Of a stretch of 64,000 nt of DNA, positions 18,067 through 60,819 are shown one piece after another. The position numbers and the translations under genes were made by a program. The notes beneath the pieces were generated by a model. It did no database searches and was not told the DNA's origin. It saw only the letters and a program-made list of their open reading frames with translations. Source of the stretch: Tessaracoccus caeni (GTDB taxonomy: Bacteria > Actinomycetota > Actinomycetes > Propionibacteriales > Propionibacteriaceae); assembly GCF_029211185.1 (NCBI RefSeq), contig NZ_JARGDO010000011.1:1-64000 (forward strand), written 5' to 3'. Position 1 is the first letter of the stretch, and each line of letters starts with the position of its first letter.

Positions 18067-18072
18067 CTGCGG

Positions 18073-19127: not shown

Positions 19128-19260
19128 AGTGGTTCAGTCCTCTCGTGGGATTGGTCGACGCGTCCGACTCTACCCCTCGCGGGCCGGCCCGAGTTTCCCG
19201 GGCTCCCTGTACGACGCCTGGCGGGGAGTCGGCGTTGGGCTCGAACCCCTCTGGTGCAGG

Positions 19261-19266
19261 TACAGT
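19261..19266 (+). promoter_or_regulatory. -10 box of purU (leaderless)
   Basis: TACAGT lies exactly 7 nt before the purU ATG at 19274 and there is no Shine-Dalgarno sequence. Transcription would start at or next to the A of the start codon. Confidence 0.65.
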
Positions 19267-19273
19267 TGCGCCC

Positions 19274-20113
19274 ATGCATCACCTCGTGGTCACCCTGCAT
19301 TGCCCTGATCGTCCGGGCATCGTGCACGCACTGACCGGCGCGATCGTCGCAGCCGAAGGCAACATCATCGAGTTGCAGCAGTTCTCGTCGCCCGATACCG
19401 GACGCTTCTTCACCCGCATCGAGGTGACCGGGGCGTCTGGGGACGATCTGACAAGGGAGATCGCCGGCGTCGCCGAAGGACTGTCGGCCACCTACCAGGT
19501 CGATGATGCCGGACGTCCCATGCGCACGCTGCTGCTGGCGTCGAAGGCCGAGCACTGCGTCAACGACCTGCTGTTCCGCGCCCGCGGGGGCGAGTTGCCG
19601 ATCGAGGTGGCCGGCATCATGGCCAATCATGCGGTGCTCGCGCCGATGGCCCGCTTCTACGGCGTGCCCTTCCGGCACCGCACGGTGACCCCCGATACCA
19701 AGGCGGCTTTCGAGGCCGAGGTGATGGAGTTCGTCACGTCGCACGACATTGAGCTGGTGGTGCTGGCCCGCTACATGCAGATCCTCAGCCCCGAGCTGTG
19801 CGAGTTCCTTGCCGGCCGGGCGATCAACATCCATCACTCGTTCCTGCCGGGCTTCAAGGGTGCAAACCCGTACCGCCAGGCCCATACCCGCGGCGTGAAG
19901 CTGATCGGCGCCACCGCCCACTTCGTGACCAGCGAACTCGACGAGGGCCCGATCATCGAGCAGAACGTGGTTCGCGTCGACCACTCCATGAGCGTGTCCA
20001 AGCTGGTGAGCAAGGGTCAGGCGCAGGAGTCGCAGACCCTGGCCGAGGCCGTGCGGCTGTTCGCGGAGCATCGGGTGCTGGCCGACGGCAGCCGGACCGT
20101 CATCTTCCGCTGA
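19274..20113 (+). CDS. purU: Formyltetrahydrofolate deformylase PurU
   Basis: A 279-residue enzyme that hydrolyses 10-formyl-THF to THF and formate, balancing one-carbon pools. Residues about 1-80 form an ACT domain (VVTLHCPDRPGIVHALTGAI) and about 85-279 a PurN-like formyltransferase fold with ARYMQILSP, INIHHSFLPGFKGANPY (catalytic Asn and His) and TSELDEGPIIEQ (catalytic Asp). The start is fixed by the ACT motif and the TACAGT box 7 nt upstream. It diverges from mdh and is followed 38 bp later by the CNNM gene. Confidence 0.95.
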   Translation: MHHLVVTLHCPDRPGIVHALTGAIVAAEGNIIELQQFSSPDTGRFFTRIEVTGASGDDLTREIAGVAEGLSATYQVDDAGRPMRTLLLASKAEHCVNDLLFRARGGELPIEVAGIMANHAVLAPMARFYGVPFRHRTVTPDTKAAFEAEVMEFVTSHDIELVVLARYMQILSPELCEFLAGRAINIHHSFLPGFKGANPYRQAHTRGVKLIGATAHFVTSELDEGPIIEQNVVRVDHSMSVSKLVSKGQAQESQTLAEAVRLFAEHRVLADGSRTVIFR

Positions 20114-20151
20114 TCTCGCGACCCGACAACAAGGGGGTATCAACCACTACC

Positions 20152-21474
20152 GTGTGGTCCGACATAGCACTGATCTTTCTCTTCATCCTGATCGGAGGCA
20201 CCTTCGCCGCGGCGGAGATGGCATTGGTCACCCTGCGCGACAGCCAGGTCAAGCAACTCGCGGGCAAGGGGCAGCGCGGGCGCACCGTCGAGAAGCTCAC
20301 CCGCAATCCCAACAACTTCCTGTCCGCCGTGCAGATCGGCGTGACGCTCTCTGGCTTCCTGTCGGCCTCCTTCGGCGCGGCCACCATCGCCCCGGACATC
20401 ACGCCGTCCATCGTGGCTCTCGGCGTGCCGGAGAGCGTCGCCTCACCGCTGGTGCTGGTGGTGATCACCATCGTGATCTCCTACTTCTCCATCGTGATCG
20501 GGGAGCTGACGGCCAAGCGGCTCGCTATGCAGCGGGCGGAGGCCTTCTCGCTGGCGCTCGCCCCGCTGGTGTCGGGCATCGCCACCCTGCTGCGCCCGGT
20601 GATCTGGTTCCTCGGCATCTCCACGGACGCTCTGGTCCGGGTGCTCGGCGGCGACCCCACTCAGGCCCGTGACGTGATGACCGACGACGAGATCCGTCAG
20701 ATGGTGTCCAACTCCGCGACGCTGGGACAGGAGGAGCGGCGCATCGTCGACGAGGTGTTCGACGCGGGCGAGCGCAGCCTGCGCGAGGTGATGGTGCCGC
20801 GTACCGAAGTCGACTTCCTGCCGGCCGACATGCCGATCCAGCAGGCCTACCGCGAGGTGCGAGGCGCCCCGCGCTCGCGTTACCCCGTGACGGACGGCAC
20901 GTCCGATCGGATCATCGGCTTCCTGCACGTGCGTGACCTGATGGACGTCGAGGGCGCAGCCCGGGCCGGCGACCTGCGCTCCATCGTGCGGCCGGTGCTG
21001 AGCCTGCCCGAGACGGTGAAGATCCTGCGCGCCATGACGGCGATGCGCAAGGAGGGGTCGCATCTGGCGATCGTGCGCGACGAGTACGGCGGCACCGCCG
21101 GCATCGTCACGCTCGAGGATCTGATGGAGGAGCTGATCGGCGACATCACCGACGAGTACGACGTTCCCGAGGCGCATACCGCGCGCATCGACGAGCTCGA
21201 CGGGCTCACCACGATCGAGGAGTTCGCGGATCTGACCGGCTACATCATTCCGGAAGGGCCCTACGACACCGTCGCCGGCTTCTTCATGGCCACTCACGGC
21301 GACCTGCCCGCCTTGAGGGAGAGCGTCACGGTGCAGCTGGCGCCGAAGGAGGCCGACGAGGACGCGGTCGACGGGGTGTTCACCCTCGAGGTGACCGCGA
21401 TGGACGGCCGCCGGGCCTCCTGGTTCGCCCTGCGGCGGGTCGAACAGCCCCAGGGGGAGGCCGACGATGCCTGA
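20152..21474 (+). CDS. CNNM/HlyC-CorC family membrane transporter-like protein
   Basis: A 440-residue protein. Residues 1-190 are a DUF21/CNNM membrane domain with about four hydrophobic segments (ALIFLFILIGGTFAAAEMAL; VLVVITIVISYFSIVIGE). Then come an acidic helix (MTDDEIRQM), two CBS domains (VMVPRTEVDFLP; EGSHLAIVRDEYGGTAGIVTLEDLMEELIGDI) and a C-terminal CorC_HlyC transporter-associated domain. Homologues bind Mg-ATP and take part in Mg2+ (or Co2+) efflux and resistance; the older haemolysin name is misleading. GTG 20152 is the first in-frame start next to the membrane domain, with AAGGGGG upstream at a long spacing. Its last 8 bp overlap the next gene. Confidence 0.88.
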   Translation: MWSDIALIFLFILIGGTFAAAEMALVTLRDSQVKQLAGKGQRGRTVEKLTRNPNNFLSAVQIGVTLSGFLSASFGAATIAPDITPSIVALGVPESVASPLVLVVITIVISYFSIVIGELTAKRLAMQRAEAFSLALAPLVSGIATLLRPVIWFLGISTDALVRVLGGDPTQARDVMTDDEIRQMVSNSATLGQEERRIVDEVFDAGERSLREVMVPRTEVDFLPADMPIQQAYREVRGAPRSRYPVTDGTSDRIIGFLHVRDLMDVEGAARAGDLRSIVRPVLSLPETVKILRAMTAMRKEGSHLAIVRDEYGGTAGIVTLEDLMEELIGDITDEYDVPEAHTARIDELDGLTTIEEFADLTGYIIPEGPYDTVAGFFMATHGDLPALRESVTVQLAPKEADEDAVDGVFTLEVTAMDGRRASWFALRRVEQPQGEADDA

Positions 21475-44047: not shown

Positions 44048-44251
44048 ATGGCCATGACTTTGAGACTCCGACCCGAAGACGAGCGCGCCCTCGCGGAACT
44101 CGCGGAGGCCGAGGGAGTCAGCAAACAGGAGGCGACCGTGCGTGCGATTCATGAGGCTGTCTCGCGGCGGCAGCATCAGGGGCGGGTGCGTGATCTTTCG
44201 GCGGCGGCTCGTGAGCGATATGCCGACGTTCTCGAGCGTCTCGGCCGGTGA
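44048..44251 (+). CDS. Ribbon-helix-helix antitoxin
   Basis: A 67-residue CopG/MetJ-like protein: the beta strand MTLRLRPEDERAL and helices LAELAEAEGVSKQEATVRAIHEAV form a DNA-binding RHH, and the C-terminal tail (RDLSAAARERYADVLERLGR) would bind and neutralise the toxin. ATG 44048 is chosen because TATCAT is 7 nt upstream; GTG 44042 and ATG 44054 are alternatives. It overlaps the toxin gene by 4 bp (GTGA) and should repress its own promoter through the palindrome that overlaps the -10 box. Confidence 0.85.
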   Translation: MAMTLRLRPEDERALAELAEAEGVSKQEATVRAIHEAVSRRQHQGRVRDLSAAARERYADVLERLGR

Positions 44252-44619
44252 CGACCTTCCTGTCGCTCGAGGACCTGCTCGCCCTCATCGAAGATCTGGG
44301 GGTGGGTCCCGTGCGGGATCTGGGTCTTCTCGACTCTGCCGCGCACCGGCCGACCTCGGTGGTGTTCGGCAGCGACGTCTACCCGAGCCTTGATCACAAG
44401 GCAGCTGTGCTTCTCGAGTCGCTCGTGAAGAACCATGCCCTTGTCGATGGAAACAAGCGTCTGGGATGGCTTGCGGTCGTCGTCTTCTACGGCCTCAACG
44501 ATGTCGATCTGGACGCTCCGGATGACGATGCCTACGATCTCGTCATTGGCGTCGCGTCGGGACAGCTGGGGTACGAGCACGTAGCGCTCCTTTTCGCGCA
44601 CTGGAGGACGGCATCATGA
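44248..44619 (+). CDS. doc: Doc/Fic-family toxin
   Basis: A 123-residue single-domain Fic-fold toxin. The core motif is NHALVDGNKRLGW (H63, D67, N69, K70, R71), matching HxFxDGNKR with Leu in the Phe position; the flap and supporting helices (LDHKAAVLLESLV) are present. Doc proteins phosphorylate elongation factor Tu and arrest translation until neutralised. It begins at GTG overlapping the antitoxin stop. The partner here is RHH-type, not the Phd type of phage P1. All key residues are intact, so the pair is probably functional. Confidence 0.87.
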   Translation: MTTFLSLEDLLALIEDLGVGPVRDLGLLDSAAHRPTSVVFGSDVYPSLDHKAAVLLESLVKNHALVDGNKRLGWLAVVVFYGLNDVDLDAPDDDAYDLVIGVASGQLGYEHVALLFAHWRTAS

Positions 44620-44759
44620 CCAGTGACAGCCAAACGCTCAACCTCGTGTCGCACGTGTAACAACTCGGTTTCATGGCTAGGAAATTGGTAAGGGCACTCT
44701 TACGCTAATCAGCGCCGCGAACGTCGTGGTGCGTCAGTGAGCCGACACGGGAGCTGCAT

Positions 44760-47700
44760 ATGATCGAGCCCAGCCTCGGGCTGTACGACCCTCGCCTCGA
44801 GAAGAGCGCGTGCGGCGTCGGCTTCATCACCCGCAAGGACGGCACGCAGAGCCATGACGTGATCGCCCGCGGAGATCAGGCGCTCTGCTCGATCCCGCAC
44901 CGCGGTGGCATGTCGGCCGAGGGCGTTGGCGACGGTGCCGGTGTCAACATCGACCTGTCGGTCGCGTTCTTCAGTGCGCTGACCGGAGTCGAGCTCGAGG
45001 GCGGGCGCTTCGGTGTCGGCAACTTCTTCCTGCCCGACGATCGCGAGCAGTGGGCCCGTGCCCGCGCGCTCATCGACGATGCCCTGGCCGACGCCGGCCT
45101 CGAGACGATGCTCGTCCGCGAGGTTCCTGTCGATGCCAGCGCCATCCGCCCGCGCGCTCTGGCCTACCAGCTGCCGATCATGCAGTGGGTCTTTCGTCTC
45201 GATGCGGCGAAAGCCGCTCCCGCAGGTGCTGTCGCCGACCGCGACCGGATCGACCGCGCCACCAACGCCGCGCTGCTGGCCGTCGAGGCGAAGGCCTACG
45301 CGGATCCCACCCTCGCAGGGCTCTATCCGCTGTCGCTCAGCGCACGCACCCAGGTTCTCAAAGGGCGACTGAACGCCGGCGAGGTCATCTCGTACTTCAC
45401 CGATCTGCGCGATCCGCGGCATGCGGTGCGCTCGCTCTACTTCCACACGCGCTTCTCCACCAACACCGAGCCGCACCCCACGATGGCACAGCCGTTCCGG
45501 TTGATGGCGCACAACGGCGAGCTCAACACCGACCGCAAGAACCGCATCTCCGACGAGGCGCTCGCCAGTGCGCGGCGCCGGAGTATCGTGCGCCCGCCGG
45601 GGCAGTCCGACTCCAGCCGCCTCGACCAGACGCTGCAGAGCCGGGTGTTCGACGACGGCCTCGACCTCGTCGAGGCGGTGGTCTCGCTGATGCCGCCGGC
45701 GTGGGAGAACGATCAGACGCTCACCCCCGGCATCCGCGCGATGCTCGAGTACTTCTCCCTCTATGAGGAGAAGAACGACGGCCCCGCGGCGTTGATCTTC
45801 AGCAACGGCGACGTGATCGGCGCGCGCCTGGACCGCTTGGGGTTGCGGCCGCTGCGCACCGTCGAGACCTCGGAGTACCTCATGGTCTCCTCAGAGGCGG
45901 GCCAGGTCGCCTTCCCCGACGAGGAGGTCACTCGACGAGGACGGATCGAGGCCGGCGGCATGCTGTACCACGATCATCGCGACGGACGCACCTATCGCAC
46001 GCGCGAGGCGCTGGAGCTGCTCTCGGAGTGCCGGGATTATGCGAGGTTGCTGGACGAGGCGCGCGTCGATCTTGACGCGCAGCCCGCGCCCGCGTTCCAC
46101 CGGGGGACGTCCACCCTCGGCTATGACGGCGATCTCACGCTCGCGGGCCGCTACGTCGCCTATTCGCTCAACCAGGAGAGCTTCCGGTTCATGATGGACC
46201 CGATGCTCGCCGACGGGTCTGAGCGGATCACCGCGATGGGTTACGGCAACGCGATCAACGCGCTTTCCGATCAGGAGGGCGGGATGGCGAAGTACTTCTC
46301 GCAGCGTTTCGCGCAGGTGACCAACCCGCCGCTGGACTCGCTGCGCGAGGCCGACGGCATGAGCATGCGGGTGGCGCTCGGCGCCAAGCCCGACGGCGGA
46401 GAGCAACGGCGCAAGCAGATCGTGCTGTCGTCGCCGATCCTCGGTCACCTCGACATGGTGCGCCTGCGTGAGCAGCGGATCTCGCCGCTGCGTCGCTTCG
46501 ACCTCCTGTTCGAGCCGGATCCCGCGGATGCCGAGCGCAACGCCGAATCGGTCGTCGCGGCGCTCGATTCCCTCTGCGATGAGGTCACGGCGTTCGCGCG
46601 CGAAGAGGGCGGCATCGCCCTGCTGTCGGATCGCGCGATCTCCACGACGCGCGCGCCGATCCCGCTGCTGCTCGCGATCGCTGCGGTGAACCAGCGGCTC
46701 ATCGACGACGGCCTGCGGCTGCGGGTCTCGCTGGTAGCCGAGAGCGGGCAGCTGCCGTCGTCGCACCACATCGCTGCGGCACTCGGCTTCGGAGCGTCCG
46801 CGGTCTACAGCCTCAGTGCCCGGCTGCGCGCGGAGGAGAAGTATCCGTCGGCACCGGCACCGGCCGGTGAGTACACCGACACCGACCGCGCCTTCGCGAG
46901 GTTCCGCAAGGCCGCGGAGAAGGCGCTGGGCAAGACGATGGGCCGCGTGGGCCTCTGCACGGTCGAGAGCTACATCGGCGGCGAGTTCTTCGAGCCCAAC
47001 TATCTGGACACGAACGACCCCGTGCTGGCGCGCTGCTTCCCGCATATGGCGACGCCCGTCGGCGGGGTCAGTTTCTCGCGCATCGTCGCAGCCGCCGCGG
47101 GGTGGCACGCACGCGGCTGCGTCGTCTCCGCGGAATCGGAGGTGCCGCTGCTGGGACTGTTCAAGGAACGCTCCGACGGTGCCGGCCATTCATTCGGCAC
47201 GACGGCGGTCCGCGGTTTCGCCGGCATGACCGAGGAGCCGCACACGTTCGGCACCGACGAGGCCGACCAGGCCGACGACGCTGATGGTTCCGCGCTCAGC
47301 CGCCTCACGCTCGGCCAGCTCGACGACGCGTTCGGGCTCACCGATGACGTGTATGTCCACAGCGGCCTGGCGGCGCTCACCGACGCGCAGATCGATGAGT
47401 TCGGCCTCACCCCCGGCTATCGCGCCTTCCGCGAGGCGACGCGCGCCGAGCGTTCGCGGCGCCCGTCCGCCCTCCGTGACGTGCTGGCCCTGCCGGCGGA
47501 TGTGGCGGGGCTACGCACCGCCGGGGAGTTCAACGATGAACTCGGACGTTTCTCGACGGTGGGCAACGCGAGCATTCTCGTGCGAGGCCTCGACGTGCGT
47601 CATCTCGGCGACGGGCGTCACCGCGTCCGGTTCATCGATGCGGCGGCCGCGACGGCCGAGCGCTACGAGGCGTTCGCGGAGTTCGTCGCCGCGTTTGCGC

Positions 47701-50312
47701 CCGGCGACCTCGACAGCTGGAGCGTCGACGATGACGGGCTTGAACTCGTCGTGCACGGCCATGCGGCGGAGCTGCTCGACCTGCTCGAGCCGGCACCGTC
47801 GAGCATTCCCCTCGCCAGCGTGCAGCCGGCCCACGAGATCACCCGCTGCCTCGCCTCCGGCGCGATGAGTCACGGTGCGCTCGTCGCCTCCGCGCACGAG
47901 GCCGTCGCACACGGGACGAACATGGTCGGCGGTATGTCGAACTGCGGTGAGGGCGGCGAGCACCTTTCCCGCTACGGGACGATCCGCGGGTCGCGTATCA
48001 AGCAGTTCGCGTCGGGACGCTTCGGCATTTGGGCGGGCTATCTCGCGGACCCCATGCTCGAAGAGCTGGAGATCAAGATCGGTCAGGGGGCCAAGCCCGG
48101 AGAGGGCGGCCAGTTGCCCGCGCCGAAGGTGACCGTCGATATCGCCGCCGCGCGAGGCGGCACGCCAGGGGTCGAGCTGATCTCCCCACCGCCGCACCAC
48201 GACACCTACTCCATCGAAGACCTTGCGCAGCTCATCCACGACTGCAAGGCCGCTCGCGTCCGGGTCGTCGTGAAACTCGTGTCGTCGGAGGGCATCGGCA
48301 CGATCGCGGTCGGCGTCGCGAAGGCCGGCGCCGACGTGATCAACGTCGCCGGCAACACCGGCGGCACGGGTGCTGCCGCCGTCACGAGCCTCAAATACGC
48401 GGGCCGCTCGGCCGAGATCGGCGTCGCAGAGGTGCACCAGGCGCTCGTCGCGAACGGACTGCGCGACAAGGTGGTGCTGCGCTGCTCGGGCGCCCATCAG
48501 ACCGGCGGCGACGTGGTGATGTCCGCGCTGCTCGGCGGCGACAGCTTCGAGTTCGGCACCACCGCGCTCATGATGCTCAAGTGCGTGATGGCCAAGAACT
48601 GCAATATCAAGTGCCCCGCCGGGCTCACCACGAACGCCGAGGCCTTCGACGGTGACCCGCGCGCGCTCGCCCAGTATCTCCTCAATATCGCCCACGATGT
48701 CCGCGAGATCCTCGCGCGCCTCGGCCTCCGGTCGTTGCGCGAGGCGCGTGGCCGAACCGATCTGGCGCAGCTGCTCGACCACCCCGCGAGCGTCGGCACC
48801 CTCGACGTGCGCGCGATGCTCGCGCGGGTGCCCGAACGTCACGTGCCCGACCCGGTGTATCTCGAGAAGAACTTCGCGGTCGACGACGCACTCATCCGAG
48901 ACGTTCGCGCCGCGCTCGTCGATCGGGCGGAGCCGAGCATCGAGCTGGAGGTCGGCAGGTTGCGCAACAGCGACAAGACCGTCGGCGGACAACTCTCGAT
49001 CGACATCGAGCGCATGCTGAACCACGAGTTGGACCAGTCGACGTTGGCGGCGCTGCCGTCGGTGTACACCGACGAACGCGGCCGCAGCTGGCTTGCCGAC
49101 GGCACCATCCGCATCCGCTCGCACGGCTCCGCAGGCCAGTCCTATGGTGCGTTCTGCAACGACGGCATCGAACTCCTCCACACCGGCACCGCGAACGATG
49201 GCGTCGGCAAGAGCCAATGCGGCGGCCAGATCGTCATCCGCACCCCCGGTGGCGGAAGCACGACGCCGGGCGGCAACGTGCTCATCGGCAACTTTGCGCT
49301 GTTCGGTGCGACGGGCGGGCGCACCTTCGTCGAGGGCGAAGCCGGCGACCGGTTCGCGGTGCGCAACTCCGGCGCAACAGCCGTCATCGAGGGCTTCGGA
49401 GACTTCGGCTGCGAGTACATGACCAACGGCGCGGTGCTCAACCTCGGCTCGGCGGGCAAGGGCCTGGGCAACGGCATGAGCGGCGGTTTCCTCTACCAGT
49501 ACGACCCCGAGGGCACGATCCGCGACCGGGTCAGCGCCGATTCGCTGCTCGTCTTCCCGATCACCGACCAGGAGCACGGCGCATTCCATGAGGATGCCGT
49601 GCTGCTCCTGCTGCGCTGGCATCGGGACGCCACAGGGTCGGCGCTCGCGTCGCGCCTGCTTGCCGAGTGGGAGACCGAACGGCAGCACGTCTTCTGCGGC
49701 ATGCCGCGTGCGCTGTTGCTCACCCAGGATGCCGACGCGATCCTCGCAGCCTCCACCCGCAAGGCGCTGCTCGACGAACTCGCGACCTCGGTGGCGACCG
49801 AGAAGCTGCGTTCGTTCAAGCTCGACTACCGCGCGGGCCGCCCCGTGCTGGGCGGCCGCGTGCCCCGGGAGCCCTCCGACGACTGGTTTGGCCTGCTCTC
49901 CGCGTATACGGTGCTCGCCATCGCCCGCGACCTCGCGCAGCAGCGCGTGCCCGGTGCGACGGGTCCGGACGACCCGCGCGTCCACGACGCGGCTCGCAAG
50001 CTGGTGCTCACCGAGGACTTCTTCGTCATGCAGAAGGTGATGAAGTACCTCCGCGGGAAGCTCGACCGCTTCGACGACACCGAGCTGGCGACCCTCGTCT
50101 CCATCCGGCGGCTCGCCGATTACACGCGCTCCCTCGAGCTGCGCAACGTCCGTGGGATGGACGCGCCCGGCACCTATGGCTGGATCCTGCACCAGCAGAT
50201 CAAGAACGCCGCGCGCAGCGATTCCGCGCGCTTCGACGAGCTGCTCGCCCAGTCCGCCCTTGATGACCTCGCGGCGGGCGCGGCGAGGCTCCTAGCGAAG
50301 GCAACCTCATGA
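44760..50312 (+). CDS. gltB: Divergent glutamate synthase large subunit with C-terminal extension
   Basis: A 1850-residue protein against about 1500 for usual GltB. A 17-residue propeptide precedes Cys18 (SACGVGF), the predicted amidotransferase nucleophile; HNGELNTDRKNR is in the glutaminase domain. The FMN/synthase domain contains IPLASVQPAHEI, SNCGEGGEH (normally NTGEGGE), GGTGAAAVTSLKYAG and the iron-sulfur cysteines C1275, C1281 and C1285 (CX5CX3C; the canonical spacing is CX5CX4C). A GXGXG beta-helix domain follows (GGQIVIRTPGG), then about 200 extra helical residues (1653-1850). A gltD gene is absent; a diflavin reductase overlaps the stop by 4 bp. Predicted reaction: 2-oxoglutarate plus glutamine to two glutamates, but a different acceptor cannot be excluded. 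Confidence 0.87.
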   Translation: MIEPSLGLYDPRLEKSACGVGFITRKDGTQSHDVIARGDQALCSIPHRGGMSAEGVGDGAGVNIDLSVAFFSALTGVELEGGRFGVGNFFLPDDREQWARARALIDDALADAGLETMLVREVPVDASAIRPRALAYQLPIMQWVFRLDAAKAAPAGAVADRDRIDRATNAALLAVEAKAYADPTLAGLYPLSLSARTQVLKGRLNAGEVISYFTDLRDPRHAVRSLYFHTRFSTNTEPHPTMAQPFRLMAHNGELNTDRKNRISDEALASARRRSIVRPPGQSDSSRLDQTLQSRVFDDGLDLVEAVVSLMPPAWENDQTLTPGIRAMLEYFSLYEEKNDGPAALIFSNGDVIGARLDRLGLRPLRTVETSEYLMVSSEAGQVAFPDEEVTRRGRIEAGGMLYHDHRDGRTYRTREALELLSECRDYARLLDEARVDLDAQPAPAFHRGTSTLGYDGDLTLAGRYVAYSLNQESFRFMMDPMLADGSERITAMGYGNAINALSDQEGGMAKYFSQRFAQVTNPPLDSLREADGMSMRVALGAKPDGGEQRRKQIVLSSPILGHLDMVRLREQRISPLRRFDLLFEPDPADAERNAESVVAALDSLCDEVTAFAREEGGIALLSDRAISTTRAPIPLLLAIAAVNQRLIDDGLRLRVSLVAESGQLPSSHHIAAALGFGASAVYSLSARLRAEEKYPSAPAPAGEYTDTDRAFARFRKAAEKALGKTMGRVGLCTVESYIGGEFFEPNYLDTNDPVLARCFPHMATPVGGVSFSRIVAAAAGWHARGCVVSAESEVPLLGLFKERSDGAGHSFGTTAVRGFAGMTEEPHTFGTDEADQADDADGSALSRLTLGQLDDAFGLTDDVYVHSGLAALTDAQIDEFGLTPGYRAFREATRAERSRRPSALRDVLALPADVAGLRTAGEFNDELGRFSTVGNASILVRGLDVRHLGDGRHRVRFIDAAAATAERYEAFAEFVAAFAPGDLDSWSVDDDGLELVVHGHAAELLDLLEPAPSSIPLASVQPAHEITRCLASGAMSHGALVASAHEAVAHGTNMVGGMSNCGEGGEHLSRYGTIRGSRIKQFASGRFGIWAGYLADPMLEELEIKIGQGAKPGEGGQLPAPKVTVDIAAARGGTPGVELISPPPHHDTYSIEDLAQLIHDCKAARVRVVVKLVSSEGIGTIAVGVAKAGADVINVAGNTGGTGAAAVTSLKYAGRSAEIGVAEVHQALVANGLRDKVVLRCSGAHQTGGDVVMSALLGGDSFEFGTTALMMLKCVMAKNCNIKCPAGLTTNAEAFDGDPRALAQYLLNIAHDVREILARLGLRSLREARGRTDLAQLLDHPASVGTLDVRAMLARVPERHVPDPVYLEKNFAVDDALIRDVRAALVDRAEPSIELEVGRLRNSDKTVGGQLSIDIERMLNHELDQSTLAALPSVYTDERGRSWLADGTIRIRSHGSAGQSYGAFCNDGIELLHTGTANDGVGKSQCGGQIVIRTPGGGSTTPGGNVLIGNFALFGATGGRTFVEGEAGDRFAVRNSGATAVIEGFGDFGCEYMTNGAVLNLGSAGKGLGNGMSGGFLYQYDPEGTIRDRVSADSLLVFPITDQEHGAFHEDAVLLLLRWHRDATGSALASRLLAEWETERQHVFCGMPRALLLTQDADAILAASTRKALLDELATSVATEKLRSFKLDYRAGRPVLGGRVPREPSDDWFGLLSAYTVLAIARDLAQQRVPGATGPDDPRVHDAARKLVLTEDFFVMQKVMKYLRGKLDRFDDTELATLVSIRRLADYTRSLELRNVRGMDAPGTYGWILHQQIKNAARSDSARFDELLAQSALDDLAAGAARLLAKATS

Positions 50313-52045
50313 GTCTCCTCCAAGCGCTGCCCGACGCGCCCTTCAGTTCCGAGCAGCAGGCGTGGCTCTCCGGCTTCTTCGCGGGGATGGTCGCGGCGCG
50401 CAGTGACGACCCAGCCACGGGCACGGCGGCCACGCTCACCGTCGACGTGCTGTTCGGCAGTCAGACCGGCACGAGTGAGTTCCTCGCGGAAGACCTCGCC
50501 GCCGCCGCTCGCGCACGCGGGATGGCGGTGACGCTGCGTCCGCTCGACGACATCACGCCCGACGACCTGCCGGGCATGGGTCGCGTGCTCGTCGTCACGT
50601 CCACCTACGGCGAGGGCGAGATGCCCGACAATGCCGAGCTGTTCTGGGAGGCGCTGGCCGCTGACACCGCGCCCCGGCTCGAAGACGTGCGCTTCGGTGT
50701 GCTGGCGCTCGGCGACAGTGGCTACGACGACTTCTGCCAGGCGGGAAAGCTCATCGACCTGCGGTTCGAGCAGCTCGGCGCCGCCCGTCTGCTCCCGCGC
50801 GTCGATTGCGACGTGGACTACGAGGATGCGGCGAACGCCTGGATCGACGACGTCATTGCTCTGCTGGCGGCCGAGGCGCCGGGATCCGCTCCCGCGCCGG
50901 CATCCGGAGCCCCCGCAGCACCCGCGAGGCAACGGCCGAAGTGGAACCGCAAGTCACCCTATTCCTCGCGACTCGCGGAGAACCGGCTGCTGTCGGGCAC
51001 GGGGAGCGCGAAGGAGATCCGGCACTTCGAGCTGGATCTCGGCGACAGCGGCATCGAGTACCAGGCCGGCGACGCGCTCGCGGTTGTGCCGCGAAACGAC
51101 CCGAGCCTCGTGGAGTTGCTGCTGGAGCGTCTGGCCCTCGATCCCGAGATCGAGATCGGCGGCGCGGCCCTGCGCGCCCAGCTGGCGCAGGGTTGGGAGA
51201 TCTCGACCCCGTCCAAGGATCTGCTGGCCCTGCTGGCTGAGCGCGCACCGCGCAGCGAGTTGGGAGATCTGTTCGCTCGCGACGAGCGCGAGCCGCTCGA
51301 GTCGTGGCTGTGGGGCAAGGACACGCTCGATCTGCTGCATGCGGTGCCGGACGTCCGGCTCGACGCGGCGGACATCGCGGCCGTGTTCCGTCCCCTGCAG
51401 CATCGTGCCTACTCGATCTCGTCGAGCCCGCTGCACAGCCCGGATCGCATCCATCTGACCGTCGCGGCGGTGCGCCACGGCAGTGCGCGCGTGCACCACG
51501 GAGTCTGCTCGACGTTCCTCGCCGACCGCCTCGGCGATGACGATCCGGTCGGCATCTTCCTGCAACCCAACACCGCCTTCCGCCCGCCCGTGGACGACGC
51601 TGCACCGGTCGTCATGATCGGTCCTGGCACCGGTATCGCCCCGTTCCGAGGCTTCCTGCAGGAGCGTGCGGCACGCGGCGCGACGGGGAAGAACTGGCTG
51701 TTCTTCGGTGACCAGCATCGCGCGTCCGACTTCATCTACGCCGACGAGATCGAGCAGTACGCCGCCAGCGGTCTGCTCACCAGACTCGACCTCGCATTCT
51801 CGCGCGACCAGCAGGAGAAGATCTACGTACAGACGCGGATGCGGGAACAGGCCGCCGAGCTCTACTCGTGGCTGGAGGACGGCGGCCATGTGTACGTATG
51901 CGGCGACGCATCGCGGATGGCCCGCGACGTCGACCGCGCGCTCACCGACATCGTGGCGGCGCAGCGCCGCCGGGGCGATGACGACGCCGCCGAGTACGTC
52001 GCAGCGCTGAAACGGGACAAGCGCTATGTGAGGGACGTGTACTGA
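50309..52045 (+). CDS. CysJ-type diflavin (FMN/FAD) NADPH reductase
   Basis: A 578-residue diflavin reductase. Residues about 45-188 are a flavodoxin domain (LFGSQTGTSE; TSTYGEGEMPDN; LALGDSGYDDFC), then a Pro/Ala linker, then an FNR-type module (RAYSISSSP for FAD, HHGVCSTFL, GPGTGIAPFRGFLQER for NADPH, YVCGDASRMARDVD) ending KRYVRDVY with a C-terminal Tyr stacking on the FAD. Such proteins pass electrons from NADPH one at a time to a haem or iron-sulfur partner such as sulfite reductase. No sulfite reductase gene is nearby. It overlaps gltB by ATGA, so its partner is most likely that iron-sulfur protein. The N-terminal PFSSEQQAWLSGFFAG is typical of stand-alone CysJ-like proteins. Confidence 0.9.
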   Translation: MSLLQALPDAPFSSEQQAWLSGFFAGMVAARSDDPATGTAATLTVDVLFGSQTGTSEFLAEDLAAAARARGMAVTLRPLDDITPDDLPGMGRVLVVTSTYGEGEMPDNAELFWEALAADTAPRLEDVRFGVLALGDSGYDDFCQAGKLIDLRFEQLGAARLLPRVDCDVDYEDAANAWIDDVIALLAAEAPGSAPAPASGAPAAPARQRPKWNRKSPYSSRLAENRLLSGTGSAKEIRHFELDLGDSGIEYQAGDALAVVPRNDPSLVELLLERLALDPEIEIGGAALRAQLAQGWEISTPSKDLLALLAERAPRSELGDLFARDEREPLESWLWGKDTLDLLHAVPDVRLDAADIAAVFRPLQHRAYSISSSPLHSPDRIHLTVAAVRHGSARVHHGVCSTFLADRLGDDDPVGIFLQPNTAFRPPVDDAAPVVMIGPGTGIAPFRGFLQERAARGATGKNWLFFGDQHRASDFIYADEIEQYAASGLLTRLDLAFSRDQQEKIYVQTRMREQAAELYSWLEDGGHVYVCGDASRMARDVDRALTDIVAAQRRRGDDDAAEYVAALKRDKRYVRDVY

Positions 52046-54250: not shown

Positions 54251-57200
54251 CTACAGGTGGCTTTCAGGGCCTCCGGTCGAAAGCAGTCTCCTCCTGCGCA
54301 TGATCAGTACGCCTGCGCTGACCATGAGCACCAACCCACCGACGGTCCACAGAAGGTCGCCCGGGCCGCCAGCGAGAGGTAGCTCGAAGGCCTTGAGGTC
54401 GATCACTCTGATCGTCCACGTGCCGTTGTCTTCGCTCACGGTGACCTGCGGATGGTCGCCGTGCACGACGACCGAGCCGTCGGCGGCGATCTCGAACGGC
54501 ACCTCCTCGGCGAGGAGGGAATAGCCCTCGGGAGCGCGGGTCTCGCGCAGCCAGTAGTGGCCGACGGGGATGCCCGTCAGCTCGACCATGCCCGCCATGT
54601 CTCCAGGCGTCAGGGCAGGATCGGCCAGCGGCGTGGCTGCCGGCTGCCCTCCGTCATCGGCGAGCACCTCGAAATCGGCGCCGTAGATCGGCTGCGGGCC
54701 GCTGGGGCCATCGACCATCTTCCACACCCGCACGGCGCCGGCGATGTCGGTCGAGGTGCAGGTCTGGTACCGCGGATTGGGCTGGCAGCCGTCCGTCGGG
54801 GGAAGGTCGCCGTCGTTGAGCAGGAAGTTGTCCGCGACGCTGTTTCCGCGCTGCCCGTTGGGCCTCACCTCCACGTGGTACTCGATCGTGTAGATGGTGC
54901 CGTCGGCGGGAACCGTGCCCGTGAGCGCGATCTGATTGCCGGTGCGGGCGGCGGCCAGCGTGGCCAGCCCGGGCGGCGAGCCGGGCTCGAGCACCACATC
55001 GGCGTCGTCCAGCACGTCGGCCAGATGATCGACCATGTCGACCGTGGCGGGAATATCCCCGGAGTTGCGGAAGTGGAGTTGATAGCTCAGCACCGTTCCC
55101 GCGATCACGGAGTTGCTGCTCGAGGAGACGGTCTTCCAGTACTCCAGGCCGGCTGCGGGCACGCTCACCGGCGCGCAGGCGGGGTGTCCTGGTATGGCAT
55201 TGCGCTCGTCCACGCAGACCTCGTTGAACAGCGTGTATTCGCCGTCGTCATTGGCCCCGGTATAGGTGACGGTGTAGGTGAGGATGACGGGGTCGTCGAC
55301 CGCGAGCTCACCCCTCCACGACAAGGTCTTGGCGACCGGATCGAACTCCGCAAAGCCGAAGTTGCCGTTGATGGAGTTGAGGGTGGCCTTGTCCAGGACG
55401 GCGCTCATGTCGTCGAGCATCGTCGCGGGGGCGTCATCCGTGTACACGCCGGGGCCGCGGTTGATGAGCGTCACGGTGTAGGTCACCTGTTGTCCGAGCA
55501 TCGGCAGTTCGGTCTCGTCGGCGGTCTTGGTGACCTCTAGGCGAGGCAGGAGGGTGAGCGTCTCGGCGCACGAGTCGTCATCGACGGCACATGTGGTGGG
55601 CTTCTCCGGGCTCATGGGGTTCTCCGGGATCCATGCCATGTTGCGCAGTTCGCCGTTGGTGACCTTGCCGATGGTCACGGTGTAGGTGATCTCCACCGTG
55701 GCGCCGGCGGCCAGCGGTCCCGACCAGCGAAGCATCTTCGTGGCGGGGTCGAAGGTCGTGGTGCCGACCTCGGGGCCGCCCGGAGCGCCGGCGAGCTTGG
55801 CGGTGACGCCCACCCAGTTCGCCTCGTCGAGTACGTCGCTCAGGTCGTCGACGACGTGGGCCGGCGTGAACAGCGTGTATGCGCCAGCTCCGGTGTTCTC
55901 CAGTGACACGGTGTAGCTCACGGTGTCGCCGGGACGGCTGTCGGCCGTGGCGGTGGTCTGTTTGGTGACCGCGGAGGAGCGGGTGACGGGCGGGCAGCCG
56001 GTCACCATCTGGGGGAGACCGTATCGGCTGCGTGATCCGGCGGCCAGAGCGAACCCGCTCTGGGTGAACGCCGGGGTGGCAGCGTCGGGATTGGTGACGA
56101 CGTTGAGTGCGGATCCGGCCCAGGTTGCGACATACATGCGACCATCCGGGGCCCTGCGTACTTGGCCACCGTCGCCCGCCAGTTCGCCGAGGAGTTCCTC
56201 GGTACCCTTCACCTCCGACCCGGTAGTCGCGCCCGCGACGCGGTACCGGTAGAGACGGCCGGTGTCGAAGATCTTCGTCGTGTACACATAGTCGCCTGCG
56301 GGTGAGAACTCGGCGTTGTAGCCGTGCCTGCCAGTGTCCGCCCCTTCCAAGAGCTGCCATTCGTACCGCTGCCGGATCTTGCCCGTGGCGGCGTTGAAGT
56401 TCAGCATCCTGACCTTGGACGATCCCGCGGTAGCGAGTGGGCCAGTAGTGGTCAGCTGCACGAGTTGGGTGTAGTCGGCGTTGAAGGCGAGTGTGCCGTA
56501 CCGGTTGCCATTGTTGTTCGACATGGTGCTGACCACCGGGATGCCCGTCACGGGGCCGTCGGCGTCGAACTCGTAGGCGAGGATGTTGGGGGAGTTGTTG
56601 GTGTAGGTCAGCACCCAATAGCCGTCGCCCGTGGCGTTGGGTGCCGCGGTGATCGCTTCCGACGCGGTGTTGCTGGCTCCGAGGTTGACGTTCTTCGTGC
56701 TGGTCACAGCGCCGAGTCCGTTGTTCTGGGTCATGTCCACGACGGAGTAGCGCAGTTGGCCGTTCTTAGCGGTCTGGTTCACGTCGGTGTTCGTGGTGAC
56801 GACGAAGAACTTGCCTGGTTGACCAGCCACCGGGAAGGAAGCCACCGTTTGCGTTGCCGAGGCGTTGCCGGTCAGGTCGGTTCCGTTGACCATGACGTTG
56901 CTGTTGCGGTCGAACACGCTTTGGCCGTTGGACCAGAACTGCAGGTTGCCCTGCTCGTCGGTGACGACGGTGGAGCCTTCCGTCGTGGTTTGGGTGGTGC
57001 GGAAAGGCTGACTGGTGGTGCCGCTGGCACCGAAGTCGATGCCTGCCTGGGTGCCGAAGAACCAGAAGCGTTCGGTGCCGCGTCGGTCCTCGACCGGACA
57101 GACCAAGGGAAGTGTGGGCATCATCGTCACCGTCTCAGCGCAGGAGTCGTCCTCCTCGGTGCAGGTGGCGGGCTTGATGGGGTTAGCGGGATCGTCGGGG

Positions 57201-60200
57201 ATCCAGGCGATGTTGCGCAGCTTGCCGTCCAGGTCGTCGCCGATGGTGATGGTGTAGGTGATGTCGACGGTGGCATCAACGGCCAGCGGTCCGGACCAGC
57301 GCAGCAGCTTCGTTACCGGGTTGAAGGTGAGGGTGCCCACATCCGGGCCGGCGGGAGCGGAGGCGAGTTTGGCTGACGCGCCCACCCAAGTCGACTCGTC
57401 GAGCACCTCGCTCAGGTCATCGACGACATGGGCAGGAGCGGCGCTGTTGTAGGCGCCGGCACCGGTGTTATGGAGCGACACGGTGTAGCTCACGGTGTCA
57501 CCGAGACGGCTGGCGGCCGACGCGGTGGTTGTCTTGGTCACTGACGAGGAGCGGGTGACGGGCGGGCAGCCGGTCACCATCTGGGGCAATCCGCCCTGAC
57601 TCGTCGACCCCGCAGGCAGCGGAAAACCGTTCTGAGTGTAGGTCGGGGTGGTCGCGTCGGGATTGGTCACGATGCTGAGCGCCGTTCCGTTGGTGTTGGC
57701 GACGTACATGCGTCCATCGGGTGCCCTTCGCACCTGACCGCCCTGGCTTCCCATCGACCCGAGGTACAGCTCGGTGTCTTTCACCTCCTCCCCGGTGGTT
57801 GCCCCGGCGATGCGGTAGCGGTAGAGACGCGAGGTTTCGAAGACCTTAGTCGCGTACACGTAGTCGCCCGAGGGTGAGAAGTCCGCGGCGTAGCCGTGCC
57901 GGCCTGAGTTGGGCGCCGCCGGCTTCATCGGCATTCCCCACTCAAGACGCTGCTCGACCTCGCCGGTGGCCGCATTGAAGTCCAGCAGCCGCAGCTTGGA
58001 CCAGGTGCCGGTGCCGTTGGTTCCCTGAGCCGTCAGCTGCACCAACTGTGTGTAGTCGGCATTGAACGACAGCGTGGCGTACCGGTTTCCGTTGTCGGAG
58101 GGCATAACGCTGATCACGGCCTGGCCTGTGACGGGACCGTTGGCGTTGAATTGGTAGGCGAGGATGTTGGGAGTGCTGTTGGTGGAGGTGAGCACCCAGT
58201 AGCCGTCGCCGGTTGCGTTGGGCACGGCCGTGATCGCCTCGGACGCCGTGTTGGCCTGCCCGAGAAGGACGTTCTTCGCCGTGACGGCACCCAGCCCGCC
58301 GTTCAGCGTCATGTCCACCGTGTGGTAGTGCAACTGCCTCGTGGTGCTGTTGTTGACGTCGGTGGTGGTGGTGATAAGGAAGAACTTCCCAGGCTGACCC
58401 GCCGCCGGGAAGGAGGCCACGGTCTGCACCGCCGAGGAGTTGCCGAGCAGCCCTGTCCCGTTGGACATCACGCCCCCGTTGCGGTCGAACACGCTTTGGC
58501 CATTGGACCAGAACTGCAGGTTGCCCTGCTCGTCGGTGACGACGGTAGAACCTTCGGAGGTGTCCTGAGTGCCTAGGAACGCCGCTCCAGGGGCTGTCCC
58601 GGTGGCTCCGAAGTCGATGCCTGCCTTGTTGCCGAAGAACCAGTAGCGCTCGGTGCCGCGTCGTTCCTCCGCGGAGCAGATCATCGGCAGCGGCGGCATC
58701 TGGGTGGTGGTCTCGCCACAGGGGGCGCCGGTTGCGGAGCAGCTCTCCGGTGTGGGAGCCTCGGCGGGATCAGCCGGGCTCCACGCGATGTTGTGCAGCT
58801 TGCGGTTGGATACCGTGCGCTCCACCACGACGTCGTAGGTGATAGTCACGGTCTTGCCCATGGCGAGCGGGCCGGTCCACGTCAGGCGCTTTGAGACCGG
58901 ATCCCACACGGGCGCGGTGACGTTCACTCCGTCCACCTTGGCGGTGGCGACGCCGGTGAAACTCGCGTCGTCGACGACATCGGTCAGATCGTCGAACAGA
59001 TGTACGGGGTTGCTGGAGGTGTAGTGGGCGTCGCCGGTGTTGGTCAGGTTCACCGTGTAGCTCACGGTCTCACCGGGGAGGGTGAGTTCGGTGGCCGTGG
59101 TGGACTTGGTGATCTCCAGATCCGGATCACACGGAGAGCCGAAGTTGTCGAGCCAGCTGTCGTCGTCACCGCTGGCGCCCTCGGCGCCGATGTAGATCTG
59201 CTTGAGACTGCCCAGGATGCGCTGGAACATCGCGGCCGGAGGGGCGGAGCCGCTCGGCCCGTCGTCGTAGGTGAACGGGCCGGTGAGCCATCGGCTGCGA
59301 CTCAGCGGGATGGTCACCCGATACCACTCGCCTACGTCGCGCACTTGGTTGGTGGTGAGGAACCAGATTCGTTCGCCGTCGGTGCTCTCGAGCGCGATGT
59401 ACATCGGGTAAAGGAACCCGTTTTTCTCGGGGATGTAGTAGAAGTCATAGCTGAAGCTATGCCCCACCAGGTTGCGGTAGTCGGTGACGTACCCTCCGGC
59501 CTGCAGATCCGGCGAGACGAACTCGGTCCAGTTGGTATCAAGGTCGTGGGTGTGCAGCGCGCCTCCGGGGCGCCCGCCGGTCGGCACGCGGACGGCCGGG
59601 TGCCGCGCGATCGTGTCGTCGATGCCAAACTCGGTGCTGCGCACCATCCAGCCGGCGTTGTCCTCCTCGAAGGTGGTCACGGTGCAGCTGCCGAGGAACA
59701 GCGGGGGCGGCGGGTCGATCGTCGTCGTGGTGGCGCCACACGGCTCCCCGTCGGGAGTGACCGCCTGGCTGCCACCGCCCGTCGGAACCTCGCAGCTCGC
59801 GGGTGGGGTCAGGTCGGCCGGATCGGCCGGCGACCAGGCGACGTTGGACAGCACGCGGGGCTGGTCAGTGAGGCGGTCGAGATGGATGTCGTAGGTGATC
59901 GTCACCGTCTTGCCGACGGCGAGCGGGCCGCTCCAGGACAATCGGGTGTTTCCGGCGCTCCAGGTGGGTGCGGTGACCGGGCTGCCATCGACCTTTGCCG
60001 TCGCGGTGCCGGTGAAGGTGGCGCCGGCCGCGCTCATCACGTCGGAGAGATCGTCCTCGATACGGGCCGGGTTTCCCACCGTGTAGTCCACGATCCCGGT
60101 GTTGGTGGCTGTGATCTGGTACGAAACCGTGCTGCCCAAGGCAGTGGGCGCCGACGCCGTGGCTTGCTTCGCGATCGCCAAGTGGGGAGGGATCCCGCTG

Positions 60201-60700
60201 CCCAGCGGGGAAAAGATAATGCCCGGATCGTCGGCAGGCGCATCAGCGGGCTGCTCTTCGTTGCTCGGCTCGTCGGAGGACTTCTTCTTGCCGGCCGGCT
60301 TGTCGTCAGGCTTCTCCTGGTCGGTCGGCTCGTCGTCAGGCTGGTCCTCTCCGGTCTCGGCGGGGTCCGCTTCTTCTTCCTCGTCCTCGGGAGACAGAGG
60401 GGTCGATTCTTCGTCAGGTGAGGGCAGCTCCTCTGCAGGGGGCTCCTGGTCGACGACGGGGGTCTCGTCCTCGGCGGGAGGGGCCTGCACGGTGGGATCG
60501 GAGGGATCGTTCGATAGCTCAGACGATGCGTCCGGGAGTGAGGTGCCTTCGGTGCCCTCGTCCGCGACGGCGTACATCGAGCTGGGGAGGGTCGCGGTGT
60601 TGAGGAGGGTTGGCGCTCCCACCGCGAGCAGGGTGCACAGAGCAAGCGAAACCAAGCGGATGAGCGGTCGTCGTGACGACCTGCTGTTCCGCGCGAACAT
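54251..60700 (-). CDS. Giant LPxTG-like cell-wall surface protein (DUF11, propeller-like and SpaA modules)
   Basis: A 2149-residue protein: signal peptide (LIRLVSLALCTLLAVGA), an acidic low-complexity stalk (about 45-165, rich in Glu, Asp and Pro), then six DUF11-type beta-sandwiches (for example LGSTVSYQITATNTG, PGETVSYTVNLTNTG). A lectin/LamG-like insert (about 340-520) lies between modules 1 and 2. Two copies of a 360-residue propeller-like domain (from RGTERYWFF to QMVTGCPPV, about 679-1044 and 1206-1567) separate modules 2, 3 and 4. Then come a SpaA-type prealbumin domain (about 1988-2090), the sorting signal LPLAGG (near 2107), a transmembrane helix and an RRRR tail. It should be sortase-anchored and adhesin-like. 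ATG 60700 is chosen over TTG 60712. Confidence 0.88.
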   Translation of the reverse strand: MFARNSRSSRRPLIRLVSLALCTLLAVGAPTLLNTATLPSSMYAVADEGTEGTSLPDASSELSNDPSDPTVQAPPAEDETPVVDQEPPAEELPSPDEESTPLSPEDEEEEADPAETGEDQPDDEPTDQEKPDDKPAGKKKSSDEPSNEEQPADAPADDPGIIFSPLGSGIPPHLAIAKQATASAPTALGSTVSYQITATNTGIVDYTVGNPARIEDDLSDVMSAAGATFTGTATAKVDGSPVTAPTWSAGNTRLSWSGPLAVGKTVTITYDIHLDRLTDQPRVLSNVAWSPADPADLTPPASCEVPTGGGSQAVTPDGEPCGATTTTIDPPPPLFLGSCTVTTFEEDNAGWMVRSTEFGIDDTIARHPAVRVPTGGRPGGALHTHDLDTNWTEFVSPDLQAGGYVTDYRNLVGHSFSYDFYYIPEKNGFLYPMYIALESTDGERIWFLTTNQVRDVGEWYRVTIPLSRSRWLTGPFTYDDGPSGSAPPAAMFQRILGSLKQIYIGAEGASGDDDSWLDNFGSPCDPDLEITKSTTATELTLPGETVSYTVNLTNTGDAHYTSSNPVHLFDDLTDVVDDASFTGVATAKVDGVNVTAPVWDPVSKRLTWTGPLAMGKTVTITYDVVVERTVSNRKLHNIAWSPADPAEAPTPESCSATGAPCGETTTQMPPLPMICSAEERRGTERYWFFGNKAGIDFGATGTAPGAAFLGTQDTSEGSTVVTDEQGNLQFWSNGQSVFDRNGGVMSNGTGLLGNSSAVQTVASFPAAGQPGKFFLITTTTDVNNSTTRQLHYHTVDMTLNGGLGAVTAKNVLLGQANTASEAITAVPNATGDGYWVLTSTNSTPNILAYQFNANGPVTGQAVISVMPSDNGNRYATLSFNADYTQLVQLTAQGTNGTGTWSKLRLLDFNAATGEVEQRLEWGMPMKPAAPNSGRHGYAADFSPSGDYVYATKVFETSRLYRYRIAGATTGEEVKDTELYLGSMGSQGGQVRRAPDGRMYVANTNGTALSIVTNPDATTPTYTQNGFPLPAGSTSQGGLPQMVTGCPPVTRSSSVTKTTTASAASRLGDTVSYTVSLHNTGAGAYNSAAPAHVVDDLSEVLDESTWVGASAKLASAPAGPDVGTLTFNPVTKLLRWSGPLAVDATVDITYTITIGDDLDGKLRNIAWIPDDPANPIKPATCTEEDDSCAETVTMMPTLPLVCPVEDRRGTERFWFFGTQAGIDFGASGTTSQPFRTTQTTTEGSTVVTDEQGNLQFWSNGQSVFDRNSNVMVNGTDLTGNASATQTVASFPVAGQPGKFFVVTTNTDVNQTAKNGQLRYSVVDMTQNNGLGAVTSTKNVNLGASNTASEAITAAPNATGDGYWVLTYTNNSPNILAYEFDADGPVTGIPVVSTMSNNNGNRYGTLAFNADYTQLVQLTTTGPLATAGSSKVRMLNFNAATGKIRQRYEWQLLEGADTGRHGYNAEFSPAGDYVYTTKIFDTGRLYRYRVAGATTGSEVKGTEELLGELAGDGGQVRRAPDGRMYVATWAGSALNVVTNPDAATPAFTQSGFALAAGSRSRYGLPQMVTGCPPVTRSSAVTKQTTATADSRPGDTVSYTVSLENTGAGAYTLFTPAHVVDDLSDVLDEANWVGVTAKLAGAPGGPEVGTTTFDPATKMLRWSGPLAAGATVEITYTVTIGKVTNGELRNMAWIPENPMSPEKPTTCAVDDDSCAETLTLLPRLEVTKTADETELPMLGQQVTYTVTLINRGPGVYTDDAPATMLDDMSAVLDKATLNSINGNFGFAEFDPVAKTLSWRGELAVDDPVILTYTVTYTGANDDGEYTLFNEVCVDERNAIPGHPACAPVSVPAAGLEYWKTVSSSSNSVIAGTVLSYQLHFRNSGDIPATVDMVDHLADVLDDADVVLEPGSPPGLATLAAARTGNQIALTGTVPADGTIYTIEYHVEVRPNGQRGNSVADNFLLNDGDLPPTDGCQPNPRYQTCTSTDIAGAVRVWKMVDGPSGPQPIYGADFEVLADDGGQPAATPLADPALTPGDMAGMVELTGIPVGHYWLRETRAPEGYSLLAEEVPFEIAADGSVVVHGDHPQVTVSEDNGTWTIRVIDLKAFELPLAGGPGDLLWTVGGLVLMVSAGVLIMRRRRLLSTGGPESHL

Positions 60701-60819
60701 TTCGTCTCGCAACGATGCCCCTTCGATAGACCCCCCCGAGTCTTGGCCAGGGACAAGAGTAGCGAATCGGCACGGAGGAGACGACCCGCGGTCTCACCAG
60801 CGCGACGGACGGCCGCCGA

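Follow-up and report, generated by a model that had tools for sequence, protein, structure and literature searches.

A candidate NADPH-dependent glutamate synthase in which a dedicated diflavin reductase may replace GltD, encoded in Tessaracoccus caeni and other bacteria

Glutamate synthase (glutamine:2-oxoglutarate amidotransferase, GOGAT) has a central place in ammonia assimilation. The locus described here raises the question from which partner such an enzyme may receive its electrons. The locus lies on a 64,000-nucleotide stretch of Tessaracoccus caeni (contig NZ_JARGDO010000011.1, positions 1 to 64,000; hereafter the window, from an assembly of 4.16 Mb) and consists of a gene for a GltB-like protein followed by a gene for a CysJ-type diflavin reductase. 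An earlier note on this DNA had proposed that the reductase is the dedicated electron donor of the GltB-like protein and acts instead of GltD. We assign a probability of roughly 85% to the reading that both proteins together work as an NADPH-dependent glutamate synthase whose GltD has been replaced by a dedicated diflavin reductase.

In the GltB-like protein, the domains GATase_2, Glu_syn_central, Glu_synthase and GXGXG each scored above the Pfam cut-off, Cys18 opens a CGVGF motif, and three cluster cysteines have the spacing C-x5-C-x3-C, which bears out its earlier description as a GltB-type protein with an amidotransferase cysteine, a flavin mononucleotide (FMN) domain, three iron-sulfur cysteines and a GXGXG domain. 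The reported 4-bp overlap with a CysJ-type NADPH-FMN-FAD reductase (FAD, flavin adenine dinucleotide) was likewise confirmed as a shared ATGA, with Flavodoxin_1, FAD_binding_1 and NAD_binding_1 each above the Pfam cut-off in the reductase. At 1011.5 bits, the GltB-like protein remains below the cut-off of the NCBIfam GltB equivalog NF008730 (1047), as do three of its relatives (1028.5, 1032.6 and 1044.3 bits). Its overall identity is 38% to Escherichia coli GltB and likewise to the ordinary GltB of its own genome, and the variant shares about 36–38% identity with the ordinary GltBs compared. In the window, tblastn searches revealed neither gltD (E. coli GltD as query, E ≤ 1e-20 and E ≤ 1e-8) nor CysI, and the sole gene of the genome with a PF01077 (sulfite/nitrite reductase) domain is located on another contig, in agreement with the note's statement that the window holds no gltD or sulfite reductase gene. 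The pair itself has no GltD nearby, in line with the proposal that the reductase stands in for it. The genome does encode an ordinary adjacent gltB-gltD pair on contig C7, which is neither the contig of the window nor that of the PF01077 gene. Hence, the variant pair is an extra system in T. caeni.

A scan of 84,980 species genomes with the FMN core of the variant yielded at least 428 confirmed relatives, not all of which are necessarily of the variant type. The best 80 of these and 2 from a scan of the phylum were combined into a set of 82 loci, which is therefore biased toward close relatives. Two entries (L055 and L057) represent the same loci as G097 and G073, the GltB gene is in pieces in L103 and L125, and some reductase matches are clipped by contig ends. 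A reductase match was located immediately 3' of the variant gltB in 82/82 loci, which belong to Actinomycetota and to alpha-, beta- and gammaproteobacteria. Within the family of T. caeni, 3 of 147 genomes (the window included) encode the variant, each with an adjoining reductase, and two further variants among 396 genomes of the phylum are both paired. Two other classes, searched later with 385 and 369 genomes, added five true variants, all five of them paired, as well as one weak match that proved to be an ordinary GltB accompanied by a GltD match. Nine plasmid records also match; of the five that were opened, one lacks annotation and the other four all show the same gene order, the first gene being labeled "glutamate synthase-related protein" or gltB and the second bearing a sulfite reductase flavoprotein name or "sulfite reductase subunit alpha".

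Among the 86 loci with both genes complete, and measured from the GltB stop to the nearest start codon, the exact 4-bp overlap occurs in 63 and a gap of at most 100 bp in 84. The pairwise identities of the GltB variant and of the reductase were strongly correlated (r = 0.973, 86 loci; 0 of 2000 permutations as high). No GltD or CysI match was obtained in 100 stretches carrying the pair (tblastn with the E. coli proteins; a second CysI query from the sulfite reductase stretch of the T. caeni genome was possibly a shadow frame and left unused), and among 25 genus representatives no group of similar genes outside the pair recurred in more than 6, the largest such group being a HemS-like gene. The pairing of the GltB variant with the reductase is far beyond chance. 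The co-occurrence and adjacency that the earlier note had predicted, away from any nearby gltD or cysI, were thus observed throughout, and together with the co-divergence they support its view of the reductase as a dedicated donor, by which electrons would be passed to the 3Fe-4S cluster. In Corticibacter populi (L126), the variant pair (6482-13813) and an ordinary gltB (16238-20323) were found on the same stretch, the latter ~2.4 kb past the reductase.

The residues of 91 variant frames (88 distinct) were compared with those of 14 ordinary GltB frames. The catalytic N-terminal cysteine is present in 91/91 and 14/14 frames, respectively, and the motifs HRG, HNGE and RFSTNT are invariant across the variants apart from one exchange of F for Y in RFSTNT. 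All 91 variants also conserve the equivalents of Synechocystis E903, K966, Q978 and R992, which we take to be the 2-oxoglutarate contacts. The three cluster cysteines occur in every variant frame with the spacing C-x5-C-x3-C, in contrast to C-x5-C-x4-C in 14/14 ordinary frames, so that the loop is one residue shorter. In a quick tree, a single branch separated the variant from ordinary GltB, with a Shimodaira-Hasegawa-like approximate likelihood ratio (SH-aLRT) support of 100 and a long-branch warning.

Whether the pair can take over from GltBD was addressed for 50 of the 80 loci by searching their genomes, with GltD defined by model TIGR01317 at E ≤ 1e-30. GltD was found in 43 of these carrier genomes and not in the other seven (Leucobacter weissii, Streptomyces sp. 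GQFP, Sediminivirga luteola, Methylobacillus arboreus, SAR92 bacterium, Pantoea ananatis and P. conspicua). The same seven genomes contain no ordinary full-length GltB frame (~1500 amino acids), with all GltB candidates scored. One metagenome-assembled genome (MAG; G579) has GltD and only partial GltB frames. Among five variants found later, where the search was for GltD only, none was detected in G843, G1372 and G1272, a weak match in G1049 and a good match in G1418. In the P. ananatis family, as grouped for this search, 92 of 149 genomes gave a glutamate synthase match. The variant is encoded in six, five of which have no ordinary GltB; GltD was not found in these five either (G589, G655, G704, G710 and G737, with all candidates scored in the last four), whereas the remaining genome, G678, has it. 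In the same family, the glutamate synthase domain is broken by stop codons at G619:C1:569457-570274 and G695:C1:398324-398962, and no other match occurs there.

The strongest hint of function comes from gene order. In six of seven loci from Pantoea relatives, the pair lies beside arcB (rapZ-mtgA-arcB-pair), at the site that carries gltB-gltD in E. coli and in three ordinary relatives (L144, L145 and L150); G678 has retained gltBD at arcB and carries the variant pair elsewhere. The Pantoea variant GltB is 82% identical to the GltB of the betaproteobacterium Corticibacter. Hence, the pair was probably gained horizontally by the Pantoea relatives and displaced gltBD at its own site. As the arcB cases may reflect one event, they do not provide independent counts. 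Certain bacteria, among them Pantoea relatives, seem to have no glutamate synthase other than the variant.

P. ananatis is used for glutamate production, and in strain LMG 2665 the sole PF01645 match is the variant, which shares 68–69% identity with four rhizobial variants and 36% with one ordinary rhizobial GltB. According to a publication on strain AJ13355, this strain has no close homologue of the E. coli GOGAT, and its gltB (PAJ_RS19710) is 64% identical to that of Agrobacterium (PMC12364357). Based on the single PF01645 match and the rhizobial identities, PAJ_RS19710 is very probably the variant. The same publication reports, at second hand from Hara 2012, that knocking out gltB made the strain a glutamate auxotroph; a word search of that publication found neither gltD nor cysJ, and E. 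coli gltBD is named. The gene knocked out was thus very probably the variant, and P. ananatis seems to depend on the variant pair. The glutamate synthase activity that had been proposed for the pair is supported by this second-hand phenotype and by the displacement of gltBD in Pantoea relatives.

A link to iron, which like the coexisting gltBD of T. caeni was beyond what the earlier note could see, emerged from the 350 nt 5' of the catalytic cysteine codon of the variant gltB in 88 loci, among which Curtobacterium (21) and Streptomyces (19) are over-represented. We used the 19-bp DtxR/IdeR-type box consensus TTAGGTTAGSCTAACCTAA given in PMC8464063. With at most five mismatches, an iron box was detected in 28 of 71 actinobacterial loci versus 2 of 1420 dinucleotide shuffles. 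A looser consensus with at most four mismatches matched 33 of 88 loci versus 3 of 440 random stretches, which were taken from the same loci and possibly hold real boxes. By genus, boxes occurred in Streptomyces (11/19), Mycolicibacterium (3/3), Tsukamurella (3/3), and Herbiconiux, Micropruina and Microbacterium (1/1 each); at up to five mismatches there was none in Plantibacter (0/4) and Rhodococcus (0/2). The regions upstream of five ordinary actinobacterial gltB genes showed 7–9 mismatches to the box. The pair is probably derepressed during iron starvation in many Actinomycetota, and iron control is probably not general.

In a search looser than that of the genus representatives, a HemS/ChuX-like gene lay directly 3' of the reductase in 34 of 86 loci, and seven of eight downstream proteins tested, plus a copy on a Tsukamurella plasmid, exceeded the cut-off of the Pfam model HemS. 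Siderophore-uptake genes come next in the Ketogulonicigenium locus. In breaking down haem, the HemS-like protein might draw on the reductase as well. Genes with a HemS/ChuX domain 3' of the reductase were noted in L059 (13896-14702), L135 (16193-17002), L064, L058, L093, L053, L068 and L090. Since the window has no HemS-like gene and only a weak half-site (Table 1), a role of iron there would be a matter of inference. An iron-containing glutamate synthase is among the enzymes lowered in the iron-sparing response of Bacillus, according to PMC9938188, and GltD carries two 4Fe-4S clusters, according to PMC8097209, so that the diflavin form would save ~8 of 11 irons.

If the pair works as proposed, glutamine would be hydrolysed at Cys18 (mature Cys1) and the ammonia channelled to the FMN site of the GltB-like protein, where 2-oxoglutarate would be aminated and reduced to glutamate. 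In the reductase, NADPH would reduce first the FAD and then the FMN. From its acidic flavodoxin domain, electrons would pass one at a time to the 3Fe-4S cluster of the GltB-like protein, and this cluster would in turn reduce the FMN there. With the two 4Fe-4S clusters of GltD dropped, the iron content per unit would fall from ~11 to ~3 by established cofactor counts. We infer that the two proteins form a physical complex, and the conserved C-terminal extension of the variant GltB is perhaps the part at which the reductase docks. This extension is missing from both ordinary GltBs aligned. A predicted structure of residues 1590-1850 reached a predicted local distance difference test (pLDDT) score of 83 and found no match at E ≤ 0.001 in a PDB fold search, while the best matches of a larger model (residues 800-1850, mean pLDDT 69.7) were only the known glutamate synthase structures. 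Beyond the core proposal, and with clearly less assurance, we lean toward a fourth GOGAT architecture next to GltBD, fused NADH-GOGAT and ferredoxin-GOGAT: an iron-sparing, horizontally mobile two-gene NADPH-GOGAT that uses FMN and FAD in place of the GltD clusters, is derepressed via DtxR/IdeR, sometimes shares its operon with HemS, and has displaced gltBD and become essential in Pantoea relatives.

Other explanations of the pair are considerably less probable. That the reductase is a misplaced CysJ of a sulfite or nitrite reductase is the least credible of them. The window reductase does pass NF004859, a looser NCBIfam model named "sulfite reductase subunit alpha" (452 vs. 432), and the annotation of its relatives reads sulfite reductase flavoprotein or subunit alpha. 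However, it misses the cut-off of the CysJ model TIGR01931 (601.7 bits, cut-off 668.15), a separate true CysJ (898–924 bits) exists beside the pair reductase in four Pantoea-type carrier genomes, and true CysJ branches apart from the GOGAT-linked reductases in quick trees. With no CysI near the pair and the PF01077 gene on another contig, the identification of the reductase as CysJ was rejected. In L045 (5069-9970, minus strand), a CysJ-like module is fused to a molybdopterin oxidoreductase; it forms another separate branch and represents a third use of this reductase type. The earlier note had named, as a finding that would refute its proposal, reductase homologues that consistently neighbour sulfite or nitrate reductases and not this GltB type. 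This was not what the loci showed: true CysJ and the fused module occur in the same or related genomes and branch apart. The motif that we take to recognise the 2'-phosphate of NADPH in CysJ and CPR is present in 86/86 reductases, including that of the window; the flavodoxin domain is acidic (median net charge −15, n = 86), and 85/86 end in RDVY. A second CysJ-like gene on a long separate branch was observed ~3 kb 5' of the pair in two mycobacterial loci (L114, 1678-3327; L131, 1670-3265).

It is also improbable, if less so, that the GltB-like protein is a glutamate synthase fed by ferredoxin or another GltD-like protein and that the reductase merely travels along. The alpha subunit of ferredoxin-GOGAT works with a soluble donor, as stated in PMC8097209, and the same or related genomes encode further CysJ-type proteins that have different partners. 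A mere passenger is nevertheless difficult to reconcile with the unbroken adjacency in the 82 and the five later loci, the co-divergence of both proteins, the 100 stretches free of CysI and the rarity of any other conserved neighbor. Somewhat less likely than this, and ahead of the misplaced CysJ, is an amidotransferase-reductase for another keto acid. Changes specific to the variant in its FMN domain (D to S in the DGG motif and PWE to xAE, 91/91 frames), the insert and the C-terminal extension would fit such an enzyme, but the presumed 2-oxoglutarate contacts are kept in all frames, the variant is the only full-length gene of the glutamate synthase type found in several genomes, the pair occupies the gltBD site in Pantoea relatives, and a P. 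ananatis gltB mutant was reported as a glutamate auxotroph in PMC12364357.

Several observations weigh against the NADPH-dependent glutamate synthase reading or parts of it. The absence of GltD in G546, G550, G556, G589 and G591 is based on the scoring of 24 of 28–83 candidates and is therefore less sure for five of the seven genomes, and several carrier genomes are drafts or MAGs. The exchanges of D to S and PWE to xAE have no explanation so far and could affect the substrate or the potential, and the charge of the cluster segment differs only slightly from that of ordinary GltB. The GOGAT-linked reductases do not form one clade on quick trees, and two changes are needed on a pruned quick tree with three long rows dropped; hence, a single origin is not established, the full reductase tree having long branches and a careful search that was unfinished. 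With regard to iron, no box with up to five mismatches occurs in Curtobacterium (0/21) or in the proteobacterial loci (0/17), and Fur sites in these 17 loci were not above shuffles, sites of RirA and Irr not having been searched. Streptomyces sp. GQFP (L065), one of the seven without GltBD, has a box-like site with two mismatches to the loose consensus, which is odd for a sole glutamate synthase. The protein 3' of the reductase in Ketogulonicigenium has no Pfam match. In the literature, neither an enzyme assay nor a complex nor spectroscopy was found for the two proteins.

Table 1 Features of the gene pair and its upstream region in the window (coordinates refer to the 64,000-nucleotide stretch)
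Feature	Position	Strand	Basis
Weak half-site-like resemblance to DtxR/IdeR box, not convincing (6 mismatches to the loose, 8 to the strict consensus)	44684..44702	+	
GltB-like protein (type of the glutamate synthase alpha subunit), 1850 amino acids, stop included	44760..50312	+	Pfam domains
Codon of catalytic Cys18, by homology the N-terminal Cys once the propeptide is removed	44811..44813	+	Conservation
Insert of ~150 amino acids between central and FMN domains, within residues ~826-1010	47235..47789	+	Gap in ordinary GltB (alignment)
FMN / 2-oxoglutarate domain, residues 1000-1323	47757..48728	+	PF01645
3Fe-4S cysteines C1275, C1281, C1285	48582..48614	+	Sequence comparison
GXGXG domain, residues 1423-1605	49026..49574	+	PF01493
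C-terminal extension of ~200 amino acids, mostly helical, typical of variant GltB	49707..50309 (wider span 49527-50309)	+	Alignment, model
ATGA overlap of gltB-like stop and reductase start, 4 bp	50309..50312	+	Open reading frames
CysJ-type diflavin reductase, 578 amino acids (flavodoxin-FMN, FAD and NADPH domains)	50309..52045	+	Pfam

Elsewhere in the window, a protein of the Fic/DOC death-on-curing type is encoded just 5' of the pair (44248-44619, plus strand; TIGR01550 above cut-off), and a 2153-amino-acid surface-type protein (54251-60712, minus strand) contains six DUF7927 stretches as well as DUF11 and SpaA domains.

The pair appears to be spread over Actinomycetota and three proteobacterial classes, to be mobile and to be capable of replacing GltBD; over part of its range it is probably an enzyme of iron starvation. 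The forms of glutamate synthase named in the consulted sections of a review are powered by GltD, by ferredoxin or by a fused NADH-dependent partner only (PMC8097209), and a GltB variant paired with a diflavin reductase was not found described in the literature searched. If the flavin-only donor is true, the accepted electron path would change, genomes that seemingly lack GltD would be explained, and the public annotation "sulfite reductase subunit alpha" would be corrected. Nitrogen assimilation would be tied to iron supply, and a simpler system would become available for asking what purpose the 4Fe-4S clusters of GltD serve.

With the bacterial NADPH-GOGAT GltB/GltD, the pair has in common the domains of the alpha subunit, the catalytic cysteine, the FMN site, the three cysteines of the cluster, NADPH as the donor from which the electrons ultimately come (by motif), the two-gene operon and, in Pantoea relatives, the chromosomal slot. 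It differs in that GltD, an adrenodoxin-reductase-like protein with two 4Fe-4S clusters, is absent from the pair and a flavin-only reductase is the partner, and in that the variant GltB has a shorter cluster loop, an insert, a C-terminal extension and only ~36–38% identity. Like the ferredoxin-GOGAT of plants and cyanobacteria, the variant would combine an alpha subunit without GltD with one-electron input to the 3Fe-4S cluster, but a dedicated NADPH diflavin reductase gene next door takes the place of a free ferredoxin. Sulfite reductase CysJI shares with it the CysJ-type NADPH-FAD-FMN reductase, and CysJ passes single electrons to an iron-sulfur partner; the partner in the variant is GltB-like and not CysI, its reductase belongs to a separate branch, and the Pantoea carriers keep CysJ too. 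In the molybdopterin oxidoreductase fused to a CysJ-like module (L045), such a module is also dedicated to another redox enzyme, although it is fused, has a different partner and branches separately. The switch from ferredoxin to flavodoxin in iron shortage, as described in PMC9938188, resembles the proposed pair in that a flavin carrier replaces iron-sulfur carriers, whereas the pair would replace a whole subunit with two 4Fe-4S clusters and bring along a matching GltB.

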